A DNA stretch of 64,000 nucleotides from an uncultured Spartobacteria bacterium. GTDB taxonomy: Bacteria > Verrucomicrobiota > Verrucomicrobiia > Chthoniobacterales > Chthoniobacteraceae. Shown one piece after another: positions 25,449 to 32,104 of this stretch. Below the pieces are notes generated by a model. That model was not told where the DNA came from. It ran no database searches and saw only the letters and a list, made by a program, of their open reading frames with translations. How positions within the stretch are numbered: position 1 is the first letter of the stretch; each line of letters starts with the position of its first letter. The DNA lies in contig CAIRYQ010000032.1 of assembly GCA_903882875.1 (NCBI GenBank), positions 1-64,000 of the forward strand. Reading direction: 5' to 3'. A program made the translations under genes and the position numbers.

Positions 25449-25766
25449 CGTCCGCTGTTAACCGCCCCGCGTGCATCCACTCGAATAGCGACTGTCCATT
25501 TGCGGATTTGACGAACGGGATAACACTGTCTGGCGAAAGCGATCGGACCGCAGAGAGGTGATTGTGGAGGACGCAAAAGCCGCGAAGATGCGAGGCATCT
25601 GAGGCCCGTTTCTTTTCTTCGCGCCCTCCGTGGTCATTTTGTTTTTGGAAGATGGCATAAGTATCAATCGCGCCGGATTTCGCATTTGCCCACGATTACG
25701 AATACGCGTGCCGCGGACGGAAGTGTCATTCCAAACCGTTATGCAAACCGCAAAAAAACACGCAAT
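25449..25766. other. Intergenic region between LOG gene and tRNA 3' end
   Basis: Long minus-strand open frames here have no family character. The stretch 25560-25645 mixes phrases such as GACGCAAAAGCCGCGAAGATGC and CGCGCCCTCCGTGGTCAT, resembling the decayed intergenic repeats found in many high-GC genomes. The original chromosome side of the tRNA-Leu terminator begins at about 25750. I see no gene. Confidence 0.5.
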
Positions 25767-25789
25767 CCACCTCTGATGATCAAAGGTGG
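25752..25789 (-). terminator. Original tRNA-Leu terminator, left copy
   Basis: Read on the minus strand, 25789-25767 folds as a nine-pair stem (one G-U) with a five-base loop and is followed by seven T residues (A run at 25752-25758). The matching hairpin at the right copy is perfect. Because integration split the tRNA, this copy now follows only the displaced 3' fragment. Confidence 0.6.
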
Positions 25790-25818
25790 TGCTCACGAGA
25801 GGACTCGAACCTCCACGG
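25784..25818. repeat. attL-like direct repeat (displaced 3' end of tRNA-Leu)
   Basis: 35 bases identical to 32017-32051. It contains the T-arm, acceptor 3' strand and CCA of tRNA-Leu, read on the minus strand. The flank to its left also matches the flank of the right copy for about 45 more bases with a few differences. Beyond 25818 the sequence diverges from the tRNA, so this is not a functional tRNA gene. Confidence 0.85.
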
Positions 25819-25892: not shown

Positions 25893-25919
25893 GTTATGCT
25901 TTCGTGTTATGCGTTATGG
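25893..25919 (+). repeat. GTTATGC boxes at left end of the element
   Basis: GTTATGC occurs at 25893-25899 and 25906-25912, and GTTATGG at 25913-25919, the last containing the integrase start codon. A further GTTATGC at 25738-25744 lies outside the core. The right end has the same box at 31960-31966 and 31973-31979 with the same 13-base period. Candidate arm-type integrase or excisionase binding sites. Confidence 0.5.
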
Positions 25920-27097
25920 CGTCCATTCACAAGCAGCCCGGCAGACCGTTCTATTTTTGCGCGTTCTCCACGTGGGATTCGGAGGGCAATCGCTGGAAAC
26001 GCCACTTTCGTTCAACGGAAACGGGAGACAAACGGGAGGCTCAGGAAATCTGCCGGGCGTGGGAGAAAGCCGCGAAAGCCGCGCACAATGGACGGCTCAC
26101 ACCGGACGCTGCGCGCGAGGTTATCGCACGTGGCGTGGCGGACGTGTTCTCCGCTGCCAGCCGTGAAAGCCTGCAAAGCCGCTCGGTGCGCGATTGGTGC
26201 GCGGCATGGCTGGAATCGAAGCGGCTCGAAAGCGCGGTGACGACTGCCAGCCGTTACGAGGGCATCATCGCGCGGTTCACCGAACATCTCGGAAGGAAAG
26301 CGGATCGCGACATTTCCAGCCTCACGGCAACGGACGTTGGCGGTTTTCGGGACACTCTCGCAAAGGACTTGAGCCGCAATTCGGCAAACCTCGCCGTCAA
26401 GACACTGCGCGTGTGCCTCGGCTCCGCGCTCAAGCAAGGACTCGTGACGAGCAACCCGGCAAACCTCGTGGACAAGCTCAAGGCTCGCGGGGAAAGCCAG
26501 CGTCGGCCATTCACGCTCAAGGAAATTGCGCGCGTGCTCAAGGCGGCGGACGGCTCGGAATGGCGCGGCATGACGATCCTTGGCATCTATCTCGGCGCGC
26601 GGCTCACGGACTGCGCGCGGCTGACGTGGCGCTCGGTGAATCTGGAAACGGAGACGATTTCCTTTGTGGCAAAAAAGACGGGCGGACGGCTTTCGATCCC
26701 GATGGCAAAGCCGCTCGTGGATTTCTTCACGGCACTGCCAGCGCCGGACGCGCCGGACGCACCCATTTTCCCGAAGCTCTCCACAAAGAGCGCCAGCAAG
26801 CTCTCGGAGGGCTTCCGCTCGGTGCTTGCGGACGCGGGCCTTGCCGAACCGCCGAACAAGCGGAGCACGGGCAAGGGACGCCACGCCGCGCGCGAAGTCT
26901 CGGAATTGTCCTTTCACTGTTTGCGCCATGCGTTCGTTTCCATCCTCAAGGCGACGGGTGCGAGTGAAGCCGTGGCAATGGCGCTCGCCGGACACGAGAC
27001 GAAAGCAATCTCGCAGCATTACACGACGCTCGACGATGCCACGCTCCGCGCAGCGGTGGACAAGATGCCGGACGTGACCGTGAGGGCCGCACGATGA
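25916..27097 (+). CDS. int: Tyrosine site-specific integrase
   Basis: 393 residues from MASIHKQPGRPF, the usual start of phage-type integrases; the frame is open 24 codons earlier. An SAM-like core-binding domain (about 85-175) precedes the catalytic domain. The catalytic set is visible: R229 in LGARLTDCARLTW, H334 and R337 in FHCLRHAF, H360 in LAGHE and nucleophile Y369 in QHYT. It excises or inserts the element at the tRNA-Leu core. The position next to attL and inward orientation are standard. The start codon lies inside the third GTTATG box, so integrase or excisionase binding there could repress its own expression; this is inference. Confidence 0.92.
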   Translation: MASIHKQPGRPFYFCAFSTWDSEGNRWKRHFRSTETGDKREAQEICRAWEKAAKAAHNGRLTPDAAREVIARGVADVFSAASRESLQSRSVRDWCAAWLESKRLESAVTTASRYEGIIARFTEHLGRKADRDISSLTATDVGGFRDTLAKDLSRNSANLAVKTLRVCLGSALKQGLVTSNPANLVDKLKARGESQRRPFTLKEIARVLKAADGSEWRGMTILGIYLGARLTDCARLTWRSVNLETETISFVAKKTGGRLSIPMAKPLVDFFTALPAPDAPDAPIFPKLSTKSASKLSEGFRSVLADAGLAEPPNKRSTGKGRHAAREVSELSFHCLRHAFVSILKATGASEAVAMALAGHETKAISQHYTTLDDATLRAAVDKMPDVTVRAAR

Positions 27098-27735
27098 AAC
27101 CCAAGCCGTCCAATAAAAAGTGCAAAGCGACCCAGCCAAGCGCGCCAGCGCACGATCAATCGCTCGATTCCCAGTTCACGGACATCTTCGGAAAAAAGAT
27201 TCCCCGCCTGATTCAATTCGGCAGGTCTGCCAACAACGCCGAACCGCGAAACGCAGTGTTTGAGGCGTTCTCGTCTGGCTTGCGGAGATTACGACATTTG
27301 GTCAAGGACTCGGGGCAACCGGCGTCTCAAGAAAGCATGGAAGTATTGTTTCCCGATCTCGCCAACACGGAGCGAAAACTTGGCCGACTTTTACTCGATG
27401 CCATTGTTGCCGGAAATAAGGAGTTTCCCGACACTGTCCGCCAAGCGATTAAGCGTGGAGACTCGGTGTTTAACCGCACCAAGGGGACCGCATTACTTGG
27501 GGATTTCGTGCGGTTCTTTTGGGCCAACAGATACAAGGAGGGAATGACCATAGGAAAATTGCGACGATCCTATGAGGAAAAGATTGGCCGGGAATTGGAG
27601 CCGCGCCAGTGGCGCGAATTAAGGAACGCGTGCGGCGTGGCGTTGCTCATGCCAGAGGGGAAGGCGGGACGGCCAGCGACGCGGAAGAAACGGAAAGCTG
27701 CAAAGCCAGAAAAGCAAGACGACGGGCTCGTGTAA
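27094..27735 (+). CDS. Hypothetical protein coupled to integrase
   Basis: 213 residues, basic at both ends (KPKPSNKKCK and GRPATRKKRKAAKP). Its ATG overlaps the integrase stop (ATGA), so it is probably translationally coupled. The middle (FPDLANTERKLGRLLLDAI, LLGDFVRFFWANRYKEGM) is helical without a recognised domain. The basic tails suggest nucleic-acid binding; a role in recombination or control of the element is a guess from position only. Confidence 0.6.
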   Translation: MKPKPSNKKCKATQPSAPAHDQSLDSQFTDIFGKKIPRLIQFGRSANNAEPRNAVFEAFSSGLRRLRHLVKDSGQPASQESMEVLFPDLANTERKLGRLLLDAIVAGNKEFPDTVRQAIKRGDSVFNRTKGTALLGDFVRFFWANRYKEGMTIGKLRRSYEEKIGRELEPRQWRELRNACGVALLMPEGKAGRPATRKKRKAAKPEKQDDGLV

Positions 27736-27804: not shown

Positions 27805-28089
27805 ATGAGTCCTAAAAACAACGCAACCGCTGACGCAAACCTTACAGCGGCACCCATCCAAGAAGCTGGTGCGAACGCTTCTCTCACTCCTGAATTTATC
27901 CGCGTCCCTGACGTGGAAAGGATTTTCGGAATCAAGCGCGGGCATTGTTATCAGTTGATCGGCGCAGGTGCCGTCAAAAGCTGCTGTCTGCGAAAACCGG
28001 GGGCAAAGACGGGCGTAAGGTTAGTGTCGTATGCGTCGCTGAAAAACTACCTTGCGCAGTGCGGAGATGGAAGGGAGGCCGGGCGATGA
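27805..28089 (+). CDS. Excisionase-like helix-turn-helix protein
   Basis: 94 residues. The core VPDVERIFGIKRGHCYQLIGAGAV (about 34-57) followed by VRLVSYASLKNYL is a winged HTH of the AlpA/excisionase (MerR-like) type, with a recognition helix and wing. Such proteins bend att DNA for excision or activate integrase transcription. Its stop overlaps the start of the next gene (ATGA). Placement close behind the integrase fits recombination directionality. Confidence 0.7.
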   Translation: MSPKNNATADANLTAAPIQEAGANASLTPEFIRVPDVERIFGIKRGHCYQLIGAGAVKSCCLRKPGAKTGVRLVSYASLKNYLAQCGDGREAGR

Positions 28090-29444
28090 ACCCCGAAAAC
28101 CGAAACGCCCGCCCCGGAAAGCCGGGCACGGACAGCTCTGGCAAAAATGGAATGCCGAGCGCAATGAGCACGAAGATCACGGCTGGCGGGAAAAATCCCA
28201 CACCTGATATATGCAGTTCAAAAATCCCACACCTTATCCATTGGGAGCGTGCCTGTGTTGTGTGTGTTGGTTCTGTCGTTCTCTCTCTGCCTGCCGGTGG
28301 TTTGTCTCTTTTGCTCTCCGCCTGTTCTGGATTCAGTTCTCTCACTTGTTCCGGTGTTTTGCTCATCGCATCGTTGCTTTGGTCGTCGCGCCGCACGTTG
28401 AAAAACGGATGCGTCGAGATGCGACTGACAACTGCCGCCGCTCGCAGTTTTGTTGATCGTGTCGGCGGTTGCTCCACTCCCGCAACTTTCGTCGCGAAGG
28501 CATGGGGCTGCAAACAGCTCACACGCGGCTGCAATGTGAACGGCAAGGTGACGAATACCTGGCGCATTCCTGACTGGTGCAATGGCTCATCCGAAAAGAT
28601 CACTGTTCACCTGACTCCGCATCAGCTTCGCCGCTGGAATCGCCGTGGTGAAATCCTGCGCGAAAGGCTCGACGACGCGAACCCGCATGCCGCGCTTGTT
28701 CGCAAGACGTTAATGGTGACGATGCCGGGGCCAGCGTTTGACGGGACGGCGCGGAAACTCACAGAAGACGGCGAACTTCGTGCCGTGAGCAATTATCGCA
28801 AGCATCCCCATCGGCTGAACGTCACGAGGGATGTGGACGTGCAATCGAACGTCTCGCGGCTGCCGGAACCGATGCGTGAGACTTTGCAAATCAGCGGACA
28901 AACGGTTGCCGAGTTTGACGTGAAATCCGCGCACGCAGTTTTGCTCGGAATGCTCTACAAGGGCGAGACTGGCGCGGAATGGGCGAAGGAAAAAGCCCGC
29001 TTTGCCGATCAAGTATTGCTCGGCTTCCCGTCCATCTACGGCGAGCGCAAACAGTGGAAGGTTGATTTTCTCTCGGCGCTTAATCAGCGGACGCGCGTTG
29101 CCCGACACGCGAGCGAAGGCTACCGTGAATTTGAACGCCTGTTCCCGCTTCTGGCGGAGAAAGCCGCCCGCATGAAATGGCGGAACAAGAATGCCGTGGG
29201 GCGTCTGCTGCGATGCGAGATGGCGAAGATTCAGAAGCAACTACTCATTGAGAATCACGCAGACGGCATCCCATCAATTCCGGTCGTGGACTCGGCGGTT
29301 GTCGCCATGCCCGAAGGCATCCATGCACAGCACCGCGCCGCATTCAGAACCGCATGGCGACTCGGCGCTCCCATCGCGGAACTCACAGGCACCGCGCCGC
29401 GAATCGAGGGCAGCAACGGAGAAAACTTCCGCTTCTTCCTGTGA
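28086..29444 (+). CDS. Putative replication protein with degenerate polymerase-A-type palm
   Basis: 452 residues from the ATG overlapping the HTH gene. Residues 1-105 are low-complexity and Cys/Ser/Leu-rich and may be poorly conserved; a later start near MRLTTAAARSF is possible. The C-terminal 200 residues show the order of a DNA polymerase A-like palm seen in unannotated mobile-element proteins: AEFDVKSAHAVLLG (D278, motif-A-like), a K/R-rich helix followed by FERLFPLLAEKAARMKWRNKNAVG, then IPSIPVVDSAVVAMPE (D402) where polymerases have HD. The His of motif C is Val here, so activity is doubtful. Probably serves replication of the element; the assignment rests on motif order only. Confidence 0.4.
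   Translation: MNPENRNARPGKPGTDSSGKNGMPSAMSTKITAGGKNPTPDICSSKIPHLIHWERACVVCVGSVVLSLPAGGLSLLLSACSGFSSLTCSGVLLIASLLWSSRRTLKNGCVEMRLTTAAARSFVDRVGGCSTPATFVAKAWGCKQLTRGCNVNGKVTNTWRIPDWCNGSSEKITVHLTPHQLRRWNRRGEILRERLDDANPHAALVRKTLMVTMPGPAFDGTARKLTEDGELRAVSNYRKHPHRLNVTRDVDVQSNVSRLPEPMRETLQISGQTVAEFDVKSAHAVLLGMLYKGETGAEWAKEKARFADQVLLGFPSIYGERKQWKVDFLSALNQRTRVARHASEGYREFERLFPLLAEKAARMKWRNKNAVGRLLRCEMAKIQKQLLIENHADGIPSIPVVDSAVVAMPEGIHAQHRAAFRTAWRLGAPIAELTGTAPRIEGSNGENFRFFL
28191..28234 (+). repeat. Direct repeat AAAAATCCCACACCT (two copies)
   Basis: The 15-mer occurs at 28191-28205 and 28220-28234, a 29-base period. It falls in the low-complexity first part of the replication-like gene. It may be a binding site pair inside a coding region, or a sign that the true start of that gene lies downstream. 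Confidence 0.5.
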
Positions 29445-29530: not shown

Positions 29531-29866
29531 ATGACCGTCTGCTTTGTAGAGCTGCAAGCCTTCACCGAAGAAGTGCTGCGCGTCGCCGATGAGGAGACGT
29601 TGCGGCAATTCGAGACGGAGCTTGCGGCAAACCCGGAAGCCGGGGACTTGATCCGGCATTCGGGCGGCCTTCGCAAAGCCCGGATGAAACTTCCGGGCCG
29701 GGGCAGGAGCGCGGGCGCTCGCGTGATTTACCTCTGGCTCCCGGAGGCGCGGCGCTTCGTCCTTTTCATGCTCTACACAAAGGCGAACAGCGCGGACATC
29801 CCGCCCGCGATGCTCGCACGCCTGCGGGCGGCAGTCGAAACGATCAAAGCGCACTACAACCGATGA
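29531..29866 (+). CDS. HigB/RelE-type toxin of type II toxin-antitoxin system
   Basis: 111 residues. The RelE/HigB fold is suggested by an N-terminal strand-helix (FVELQAFTEEVLRVADEETLRQFETELAANP), then GDLIRHSGGLRKARMKLPGRGRSAGARVIYLWL and RFVLFMLYTKANSADIPP. The G-G-L-R-K-x-R and final strand/helix are those of phage-type RelE-like proteins that cleave ribosome-bound mRNA. The start at 29531 is taken because upstream codons run into the promoter. It is first in the pair and overlaps the antitoxin by four bases (ATGA), the toxin-first order typical of higBA. Confidence 0.8.
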   Translation: MTVCFVELQAFTEEVLRVADEETLRQFETELAANPEAGDLIRHSGGLRKARMKLPGRGRSAGARVIYLWLPEARRFVLFMLYTKANSADIPPAMLARLRAAVETIKAHYNR

Positions 29867-30183
29867 AAACGAAAACGAAGAAAACCGAAATTGCATTCGA
29901 CGCAGCGGCGCTTGTCGCCCGCGTGGAAGGCTTCGCCGCCGGGCACGCGCCCGCGCGCGAGCGCACCGTGACACGGCCCCCGCCCGTGAAGGCGATGCCC
30001 GCAAAGGCAATCCGCGCTTTGCGGATTCAACTCGGCTGCACACAGATGGAATTCGCCGCACTGCTGAACGTGCCGAAAGTCACGGCAATCTCATGGGAGA
30101 ACGGCACCCGCAAACCCAGCGGTGCCGCCCTGCGCTTGCTCGCCGTCGCCAAGCATCACCCGGAAGCGTTGCAGGCGGCGTGA
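29863..30183 (+). CDS. HigA-type XRE antitoxin
   Basis: 106 residues. The C-terminal half holds a Cro/CI-type HTH: AIRALRIQLGCTQMEFAALLNVPKVTAISWENGTRKPSGAAL (split here as IQLGCTQMEFAALLNV and VTAISWENGTRKPSG). The N-terminal half is a flexible, probably toxin-binding segment. It neutralises the toxin and should bind the inverted repeat upstream of the toxin start. ATGA coupling to the toxin ensures co-translation. Confidence 0.85.
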   Translation: MKTKTKKTEIAFDAAALVARVEGFAAGHAPARERTVTRPPPVKAMPAKAIRALRIQLGCTQMEFAALLNVPKVTAISWENGTRKPSGAALRLLAVAKHHPEALQAA

Positions 30184-30225: not shown

Positions 30226-31140
30226 CTAGGGTTTGGGCGGACGGACGGGCGGCGATGCCTGTCGGAACACCCCGTCTCCAACCTTGGCAACCTCATCCGC
30301 TAACACTGTCGGCCATTCGGGATCGCTGAAAATCTCCGGCTTTGCGATCTGATAGCGTTGAACCCTGAGTTTGAAAAACCGGTGGAATGGCGAGTCTTCA
30401 TTCCCCAGTTCGGGATACTTGTGGAGCGCCCTTGCCTGTGCGGCGGGTGATGCCGCTGGCACTGCGTCGGCTGACGCACTTGGTTCCGGCATTGGTGACG
30501 GTATTGGCGTTTTCGCTACTGACGGAGGATTGGGTGTAGAAACCTGTTGCGGTGTTTCTCGCGGCGGAATCGGCGGTGGAGTCGGCGCGGCTTCTGAATT
30601 TTTCGGCGCGTCGTGATAGATTGAGTAAAGCCATCCGACCGCAAGACAGGACAGCACGACAGCAAGCAACGGAAGCATCCCGGATCTATTCTCTCGGACT
30701 GCTTCGGTGTTCGCGACCTGCGAAAACGGATCGGCGGACGGAAGCTCTTGTTTTGGGCAAAATTCATCCTCCAACCGAAATCGTTTGATCAAGACCACAA
30801 GTGCATCCCCATCGATCAACTGGATGGGTTTCCCGTCGGCAAACGCGATAGCCTTTTTTGAGAAAGAACCCGAAGTAACCAAAATTGCGCCCGCCGCACC
30901 CACGTGCATCAGCGTCCCGTAAAGATCGCGAATTTCTGGTTCGCCGACACTGCCTTCCCAGTGTTTTGCCTGCACGATGTAGTGGCGACGACGACGAGAC
31001 CAAAACAACGGTCTCGTGAAAATGTTCAGATCGATTCCACCGTCACCAGTGGCTTGCGTGACTTCAACGCTATAACCCATTCGCTCGTAGAGCACGCCGA
31101 GGGCGTGTTCAAACTTCCAATAGTCGCAAGTGATTTTCAT
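30226..31140 (-). CDS. Mrr-type restriction endonuclease with transmembrane helix
   Basis: 304 residues from MKITCDYWKF. An Mrr_cat-type PD-(D/E)XK core is clear: ATGDGGIDLNI (D37), then the strand YIVQAKHW (Q57-x-K59) and VGEPEIRDLYGTLMHVGAAGAILVTSGSFS. A single hydrophobic helix follows (about 150-172, MLPLLAVVLSCLAVGWLYSIY), then a Pro/Ala-rich linker and a 60-residue tail. Mrr domains cut modified or foreign DNA. Tethering to the membrane is unusual for Mrr but is seen in some defence proteins. It is transcribed opposite to the neighbouring toxin-antitoxin pair. Confidence 0.8.
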   Translation of the reverse strand: MKITCDYWKFEHALGVLYERMGYSVEVTQATGDGGIDLNIFTRPLFWSRRRRHYIVQAKHWEGSVGEPEIRDLYGTLMHVGAAGAILVTSGSFSKKAIAFADGKPIQLIDGDALVVLIKRFRLEDEFCPKQELPSADPFSQVANTEAVRENRSGMLPLLAVVLSCLAVGWLYSIYHDAPKNSEAAPTPPPIPPRETPQQVSTPNPPSVAKTPIPSPMPEPSASADAVPAASPAAQARALHKYPELGNEDSPFHRFFKLRVQRYQIAKPEIFSDPEWPTVLADEVAKVGDGVFRQASPPVRPPKP

Positions 31141-31254
31141 GCGCGCCCACTCACCGTGGGCCGGTGCCAGCGCACACTCAAGACGCATCGCGGGAGGATT
31201 TTTCCAGAGCCGGTTACAAGCCGCTCAAACCCGCCAGCGCGAACAAGCGCAAAT

Positions 31255-31518
31255 CTACTGCCGGTAGATTTCCCGACGATTGCCGATTTGCACCACGAGC
31301 ACCACGAGCACGGCGTCCTGAATCTGGTAGATGATCCGGTAGTCGCCCACGCGGACGCGGTAAAGCCCGTCCTCACCCTGCATCTTGAGGCATCCGGGCG
31401 GGCGCGGGTTGCTGGCGAGTCCGCCGATGGCATCTTGCAGCCTGTCGCGAAGCCTCTTGTCTGTCAGCGAAAGGAGGAACTTGCGCGCCTTCCGGCCAAC
31501 CTCAACCGTGTAGGGCAT
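31255..31518 (-). CDS. RelE/ParE-family toxin
   Basis: 87 residues. Classic RelE fold: MPYTVEVGRKARKFLLSL, the helix DKRLRDRLQDAI, then NPRPPGCLKMQGEDGLYRVRVGDYRIIYQIQD, with the RVRVGDYRIIY core strand. Residues that cut mRNA at the ribosome in RelE (basic residues and a final Tyr/Arg) are represented by R72/R76-type positions. It overlaps the end of its antitoxin gene by 17 bases and follows it, the antitoxin-first order. Confidence 0.9.
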   Translation of the reverse strand: MPYTVEVGRKARKFLLSLTDKRLRDRLQDAIGGLASNPRPPGCLKMQGEDGLYRVRVGDYRIIYQIQDAVLVVLVVQIGNRREIYRQ

Positions 31519-31720
31519 CCAATTCGGCTTTCACTTTTTCCCACGGCACGGGCTTTTCCCCGGCGGCGATCTCCGCGAGAGCTTCGCGGGCGGATGCCAA
31601 GTCTTCCGCCGCTTCGCGCGCTTCCAATTCCGCAAGGTCTTCAATCAGCGAAACGACGCACGCTGCCCTTTCATCGGAAAGCGTCTGCATTTTCGCAACG
31701 GCATCGGCGACTGCAATCAT
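31502..31720 (-). CDS. Antitoxin for RelE-family toxin
   Basis: 72 residues from MIAVADAVAKMQTL; helical throughout with an acidic, Ala/Glu-rich middle (LIEDLAELEAREAAEDLASAREALAEIAAGEKPVPWEKVKAEL, here abbreviated), the plan of short Phd-like RelE antitoxins. A longer frame begins 17 codons upstream but adds no family character. Co-transcribed with the toxin, whose start lies within its last codons. Confidence 0.7.
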   Translation of the reverse strand: MIAVADAVAKMQTLSDERAACVVSLIEDLAELEAREAAEDLASAREALAEIAAGEKPVPWEKVKAELDALHG

Positions 31721-31959
31721 GCGGAGAGAATCCCATAAGACCGCGCAAGCGTCAACCGGGACAAACGGCACCCCGCCTCTAGGTTCTCCTTTCCGAAAAG
31801 CACGCAGGCAGGTTCCGAAGTGCTCCGAATCGCTAGCTGCGATTTTTTTCTAGGCTCTCACCACTACTCGACGCGTTTTGAGAGGGAAAACGCGCGGCTG
31901 AGTGCGCGATCCGGTGACGCACCGCCAGATGGCAAAACACGCATGACACGGGCGGCGTT

Positions 31960-31986: not shown

Positions 31987-32022
31987 AAAAAAACGCAATC
32001 CACCTCTGGTTATCAGAGGTGG
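31987..32022 (-). terminator. tRNA-Leu terminator, right copy
   Basis: A perfect nine-pair inverted repeat (32000-32008 with 32014-32022, loop GTTAT) followed on the minus strand by seven T residues. The outer stem bases are the encoded CCA end of the tRNA, so the terminator and tRNA 3' end share sequence. Confidence 0.8.
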
Positions 32023-32051
32023 TGCTCACGAGAGGACTCGAACCTCCACGG
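32017..32051. repeat. attR-like direct repeat inside intact tRNA-Leu
   Basis: 35 bases identical to 25784-25818. It covers the T-arm, acceptor strand and CCA of the functional tRNA gene, so insertion of the element keeps the tRNA intact at this side. Confidence 0.85.
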
Positions 32052-32104
32052 GTTGCCCCATACGGTCCTGAGCCGTACGCGTCTGCCAATTCCGCCACAT
32101 GAGC
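32020..32104 (-). tRNA. tRNA-Leu(CAG)
   Basis: 85 bases on the minus strand. Seven-pair acceptor stem (GCTCATG with CGTGAGC, one G-U), D-arm GCGG...CAGACGC, anticodon stem TACGG/CCGTA with loop CTCAGGA giving anticodon CAG, a long variable arm (GGGCAACCC) as expected for leucine, T-stem GGAGG/CCTCT with loop TTCGAGT, discriminator A and an encoded CCA. Its 3' part is the integration target of the neighbouring element. It lies 76 bases beyond the dnaN stop on the same strand. Confidence 0.95.

Follow-up and report, generated by a model that had tools for sequence, protein, structure and literature searches.

A TV-Pol-derived family-A-like polymerase protein lacking three active-site residues, the likely replication protein of a small integrative element in Verrucomicrobiota

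The window analysed here is a stretch of 64,000 nucleotides from an uncultured Spartobacteria bacterium. Within it a 6.2-kb stretch encloses a polymerase-like gene and carries a 65-bp direct repeat (94% identity) at both ends. The left attachment-site repeat (25754-25818, + strand) is a copy of the tRNA-Leu 3' end, and the right one (31987-32051, +) overlaps the 3' end of tRNA-Leu(cag) (32020-32104, -), the apparent integration target. The genes between the repeats are, in this order, a tyrosine integrase (25916-27097, +; Phage_integrase and Phage_int_SAM_5, PF00589 E=2.4e-12), a 213-aa protein without a family match (27094-27735, +), a small excisionase- or regulator-like HTH protein (27805-28089, +; weak AlpA/HTH_17 match), the polymerase-like ORF (28086-29444, +), a RelE-like toxin with an XRE-type antitoxin (29531-30183, +; family match), an Mrr-type restriction endonuclease protein (30226-31188, -; PF04471 E=8.6e-29) and small genes at the right end. 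The toxin-antitoxin pair and the Mrr-type protein were classed as cargo. From the repeats, the tRNA, the integrase and the HTH gene the stretch was read as an element integrated at tRNA-Leu. When the joined flanks were searched against the genus for an empty integration site, relatives matched the tRNA side and the left flank was unmatched. Pfam gave no helicase match among the scanned neighbours of the polymerase-like gene.

Some further features of the element were recorded. The Mrr-type protein, with a possible membrane segment, is likely defence cargo, and two small genes at the right end (31255-31771, -) resemble a second RelE-type toxin-antitoxin module. The 213-aa protein could partner the polymerase-like protein.

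The polymerase-like ORF codes for 452 amino acids, is present in one copy in its own genome and starts within an ATGA overlap with the stop codon of the upstream HTH gene. A candidate second start ATG lies at 28419. Codon statistics leave the choice between 28086 and 28419 undecided; relatives have a similar start region and carry repeats in the 5' coding end. Codon-position G+C is atypical across residues 1-160, and we are unsure of the coding status of residues ~1-85. An antisense ORF of 209 aa (27974-28603, -) runs across the 5' portion of the gene; over most of 28086-28560 codon-position G+C suits its frame better than that of the gene. For the core, comparison with the truncated copy found in a genome of the same genus (G008) gave pN 0.20 and pS 0.68, and dN 0.24 and dS 1.74. 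Purifying selection acts on the core; the dN/dS of ~0.14 is a rough value because dS is near saturation.

Relatives were collected with profiles. A two-row profile (window protein and G008 copy) run over the class found L011, L012, L013 and the fragment L016. After addition of L011-L013 the profile also found L022 and L023 and, less strongly, L025 and L026. L083-L088 came from later searches, which covered the class and the order. L013 weakly matched (E 0.07) a hypothetical protein of Vibrio phage ICP1 (L019, 1496-3157) that belongs to phrog_4756, a family of unknown function in PHROGs. The same family was matched by L022, L023, L025 and L026. With L025, L026 and the ICP1 protein as queries, 20 loci were obtained from viral contigs. 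The motif order of these viral and bacterial proteins (GGR-x-Y, motif A D, D-x-Y, RxxxK, LQ...D/E, HD) is the order described for the TV-Pol family (PMC2579912), and they are called TV-Pol-type below, a label given by features (motif order, PHROG 4756) on the basis of that description. Since the ICP1 protein has the TV-Pol-type motifs including His-Asp, phrog_4756 is probably a polymerase family.

Translated searches of plasmids and phages with the window protein yielded no reliable match. No relatives turned up when viral contigs were scanned with the window protein, A1, A3, L022 and A6, and profile searches of the PDB with A4 and A7 returned chance matches only. Two candidates were discarded: a match to the 'DNA polymerase I' of phiXaf18, which runs antisense to that gene, and a match in G422 (E 0.006), which was rejected after its open frames had been read.

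An HTH gene lies 5' of the polymerase-like gene in the window and in L072 (L011), L073 (L012), L074 (L013) and L087, with one intervening gene in L073. The HTH assignment comes from Pfam in L074, is weak in the window and in L073, and was made by eye for L072 and L087. Integrases were found in the window, L072 and L074 and, weakly by Pfam, in L075. The latter is a short contig (1-4751) and perhaps a further small integrative element: it combines a tRNA-Pro and a TV-Pol-type gene with genes that resemble an integrase and, by eye, possibly a relaxase.

The window protein had no match in Pfam or NCBIfam, PF00476 being absent up to E 10, and searches of PHROG and PDB sequences gave chance-level matches only. 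When the window subfamily was compared directly with canonical family A by hhalign there was no match, so the link to family A rests on intermediates. The window subfamily matched the TV-Pol-type set with a probability of 98.4% and a pairwise E of 8e-15 (here as below, profile-profile E-values refer to single comparisons). The probability was 98.9% for the window subfamily against L022/L023, and 98.3% for L022/L023 against the TV-Pol-type set. The TV-Pol-type profile in turn matched canonical family A weakly (36%, E 4e-4), in register at GR, motif A and RxxxK. These comparisons support a chain of homology that would lead from the window protein over its Verrucomicrobial relatives and the phage and bacterial TV-Pol-type proteins to E. 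coli Pol I.

The empty family and sequence searches, together with the missing direct profile match to canonical family A, would fit an ORF that is unrelated to polymerases and resembles them by accident. Profiles made independently of the window protein nevertheless find this ORF: a profile of L011-L013 that excluded the window protein had it as the single match among the 1077 six-frame segments of the window (E=2e-12), and the TV-Pol-type profile found it at E=3e-5, a resemblance beyond chance. The alignment of the catalytic columns and the unanimous structural matches, both given below, also oppose an accident, which we regard as very improbable. The window protein is very likely homologous to the family-A palm.

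A structure was predicted for residues 195-452 from an alignment with the G008 copy and 17 viral relatives. The model had a pLDDT of 62.5 and a pTM of 0.52, with block means of ~67-86 across much of the palm; its fold is not fully independent evidence because the alignment contained TV-Pol-type rows. With the G008 copy as the only second row, the prediction was useless (pLDDT 34.5). In the secondary structure of the model D278 ends the first palm strand and D402 is in the following hairpin turn, as in family A. Helices precede the palm (the thumb of TV-Pols consists of two antiparallel helices) and are followed by a low-confidence stretch. Foldseek against the PDB gave no significant E-value, the best rows being mostly Taq polymerase, and against viral models its top match was a putative DNA polymerase I (probability 1.00, E 2.5e-4). 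In VIA the best 50 alignments were all with family-A polymerases (Z to 8.3), including T7 DNA polymerase at 3.9 A over 183 residues. As VIA warns that a Z of about 8 can reflect a common arrangement, the weight lies on the unanimity of the 50 chains. A palm fold of the core is thus supported by a model of moderate confidence. A family-A-like palm in a mobile-element protein had been suggested from the sequence-only reading, and it is borne out by the profile homology, by this fold search and by an in-register catalytic alignment with Pol I.

This was a single alignment of 27 sequences, including E. coli Pol I and T7 DNA polymerase, to which a later table adds six relatives. R668, D705, R754, K758, Q849 and D882 of Pol I share columns with residues of the relatives. 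D278 (28917-28919, +), the metal-binding Asp of motif A, lies in EFDVKSAHAVLL in the translated ORF and aligns with D705. R321-x3-K325 (29046-29060, +), the RxxxK of the fingers, aligns with R754/K758. V401-D402 (29286-29291, +) of motif C, within IPVVDSAVV, aligns with H881-D882; the Asp is kept and the usual His is lost. D251 (28836-28838, +) stands in place of the hairpin Arg R668, and R376 (29211-29213, +) in place of Q849. The sequence-only reading had placed motifs A and C correctly and had rightly noted Val-Asp for His-Asp, but its motif list overlooked motif B R321-x3-K325 and the loss of the hairpin Arg. Of its FP-x-L-x4-K motif, F353, P354 and K364 proved invariant among the first relatives collected, though the exact spelling is F353-P354-LLAEKAARM-K364. 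'Degenerate', its word for the palm, is apt for the lost equivalents of Arg668, Gln849 and His881 but not for the metal Asp and RxxxK residues, which are kept.

The equivalents of R668 and H881 are both gone in seven sequences (window, G008, L011, L012, L013, L086 and L087), and the fragment L016 has lost the His equivalent. Both are kept in L022, L023, L025, L026, L083, L084, L085, L088, the viral members and E. coli Pol I; in T7 DNA polymerase a slip of the alignment displaces the Arg from the column by two residues. The Gln849 equivalent is changed in the window, G008, L012, L013 and L087 and kept in L011, L016 and L086, and three viral members have Met in this column. The Arg668 column contains D251 in the window protein and T, H, H, T and T in L011, L012, L013, L086 and L087, respectively, and the replacements of His881 also vary (V, T, S, A). 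Both metal Asp residues are present in every palm-complete relative. The seven clade members with a complete palm, most of which share little sequence identity, all keep these two residues and the Lys of RxxxK. For the Arg of RxxxK, G008 has N, L087 has P, L083 has H and L031 has K; in L088 both RxxxK residues differ in this alignment. At the position of the fingers Asp, which is present in L011-L013, the window protein has S316 (PSIYGE). In a palm tree the triad-less sequences formed one clade (support 98/93), which was recovered (96/82) with the three diagnostic columns masked and Pol I omitted. The simplest reading is a single ancestral loss of the triad residues, and the seven sequences therefore count as one event, not seven.

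Gln849 of Pol I is presumably the counterpart of Gln1102 in Pol gamma. The three residues match the 'fidelity switch' Arg853, Gln1102 and His1134 of Pol gamma (PMC11122685). Mutation of Arg668 in Pol I lowers catalytic proficiency ~1300-fold, whereas kcat falls ~400-fold on mutation of Asp882 and ~10-fold on mutation of His881; Arg668 has been reported to outweigh the metal ligand Asp882 in Pol I catalysis (PMC11122685). The protein might accordingly be an iteron-binding initiator with a dead palm kept as a scaffold, whose core does no more than bind DNA or bring in replication proteins of the host. The whole clade lacks the Arg668 and His881 equivalents, and most of it also that of Gln849; this and the size of the Arg668 effect agree with a dead palm. 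The lost Arg668 equivalent, S316 in place of the fingers Asp and the missing Arg of RxxxK in G008 and L087 all speak against an active polymerase. A dead active site, however, would be expected to lose its metal ligands, and it is these and the RxxxK Lys that seven of seven palm-complete clade members have kept while the triad drifts. The core is, moreover, under purifying selection. A dead palm is therefore disfavoured, and we consider it rather unlikely. With the metal ligands most conserved amid a drifting triad, the core is probably catalytically active, as far as residue conservation can tell.

The window protein resembles the TV-Pol family (PMC2579912) in its length class (~400-600 aa), in having an extra N-terminal domain and no nuclease domain seen, in the two palm Asp residues (D278, D402) and RxxxK (R321/K325), and in its location in a mobile element with integrases or resolvases. 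It differs in several respects: its clade is devoid of the hairpin Arg termed absolutely conserved in TV-Pols (PMC2579912), the protein itself has no fingers Asp, unlike L011-L013, its motif C His is replaced, no D5-like helicase was seen in the element, and the gene has repeats in its own 5' coding end. Because two defining features, the hairpin Arg and the fingers Asp, are absent, the protein is called TV-Pol-derived and not a canonical member. Our call from these comparisons is that it descends from TV-Pol-type enzymes and would work like a TV-Pol. The suggestion made earlier that an active enzyme of this kind may be new was too strong in one respect, as the protein appears to descend from this described group (PMC2579912).

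The conserved Asp and RxxxK residues and a mobile-element context like that in PMC2579912 would also suit an ordinary TV-Pol-type primase-polymerase in which other residues substitute for the triad and the mode of working is unchanged. Such an enzyme is hard to reconcile with a whole clade missing the 'absolutely conserved' Arg and the motif C His, or with an element in which no D5-type helicase was seen, and we think it distinctly improbable. The phrog_4756 proteins share the palm motif order and profile-level similarity with the window protein, but they keep the Arg and His-Asp and belong to tailed phages. Pol I and T7 DNA polymerase (PF00476) share the palm fold, as seen in the model, and the positions of D705, R754, K758 and D882. 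The window protein is much shorter than these enzymes, has no Pfam match and no exonuclease domain seen, and has lost the equivalents of R668, Q849 and H881.

Two copies of an iteron-like repeat, AAAAATCCCACACCT, are located within the 5' end of the polymerase-like ORF (28191-28205 and, 29 bp on, 28220-28234, both +). They are the only occurrences in the window, against 0.06 expected, and as they are in different reading frames the repeat is one at the DNA level. Repeats also occupy this part of the gene in L011, L012 and L013, with sequences of their own. For the in-gene repeats of the window and these three relatives, 0 of 40 shuffles did equally well, and the different frames of the copies in these four genes point to selection on DNA. 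L022 has repeats upstream of the gene. By the same test there were none in L023, L083, L084 and L087 and marginal ones in L085 and L088; among the viral and other members tested, two copies were found in L034 (upstream) and L043 (same frame) and none in the rest. We infer that the repeats are iterons or an origin, and they may be binding sites of the window protein. That the window has only two of them, and that none were detected in L087, counts against the mode of working proposed below. The pre-palm region of L011-L013 resembles a winged helix by eye. The window protein aligns weakly with this region from ~residue 85, and its statistically supported match begins near residue 158; its N-terminal half may thus be winged-helix-like.

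The protein is likely the replication protein of the 6.2-kb element, and most likely the replication initiator and primase-polymerase in one. We favour, as rather probable, a protein with a winged-helix-like N-terminal half and a TV-Pol-derived family-A core that starts synthesis at its own repeats. The N-terminal half would bind the iteron-like repeats that lie in the 5' coding end of the gene, the polymerase core would start DNA synthesis there by making a primer or by short extension, and host replication enzymes would take over from the started strand. As the metal- and nucleotide-contacting residues are kept and the residues that check the strand end are lost, the protein is probably the element's own replication starter. 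A more specific version, which we put forward tentatively as a possibility, is a one-protein starter made up of an iteron-binding domain and a triad-less family-A core that begins strands without needing or checking a paired primer end. No description of such primase-like family-A catalysis was found in the literature searched. The proposed logic, an initiator with a winged-helix-like half that binds repeats, is that of the winged-helix Rep initiators of iteron plasmids. To our knowledge, these Rep proteins have no polymerase core.

The closest analogy for priming is the A-family polymerase CCPol of SCCmec, which primes together with its partner MP as CCPol-MP (PMC7581432); de novo priming by the window core would be a guess from this analogy. 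Compared by description, the two systems have in common a compact family-A core, an integrative element and repeats near the replication genes (PMC7581432, PMC10061031). CCPol, in contrast, uses the OB-fold partner MP and the helicase Cch2. Neither a helicase nor an MP-like partner was seen in the window element, and this counts against the proposed mode of working. According to Rice 2023, the active-site and helix O residues are conserved in the CCPol group.

PF00476 had no match in the window's own genome or in 24 of the 28 genomes of the relatives search, in agreement with the report that many Verrucomicrobia are without Pol I (PMC12926913). Few enzymes have been studied as thoroughly as the family A polymerases. 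A natural clade without the Arg668 and His881 equivalents, and mostly without that of Gln849, in which the metal and nucleotide ligands are kept is a direct test of what these residues are for, and it also allows one to ask whether loss of the triad accompanies de novo priming. If the proposal is true, it would provide a replication protein for small integrative elements of Verrucomicrobia, whose hosts are often without Pol I (PMC12926913).
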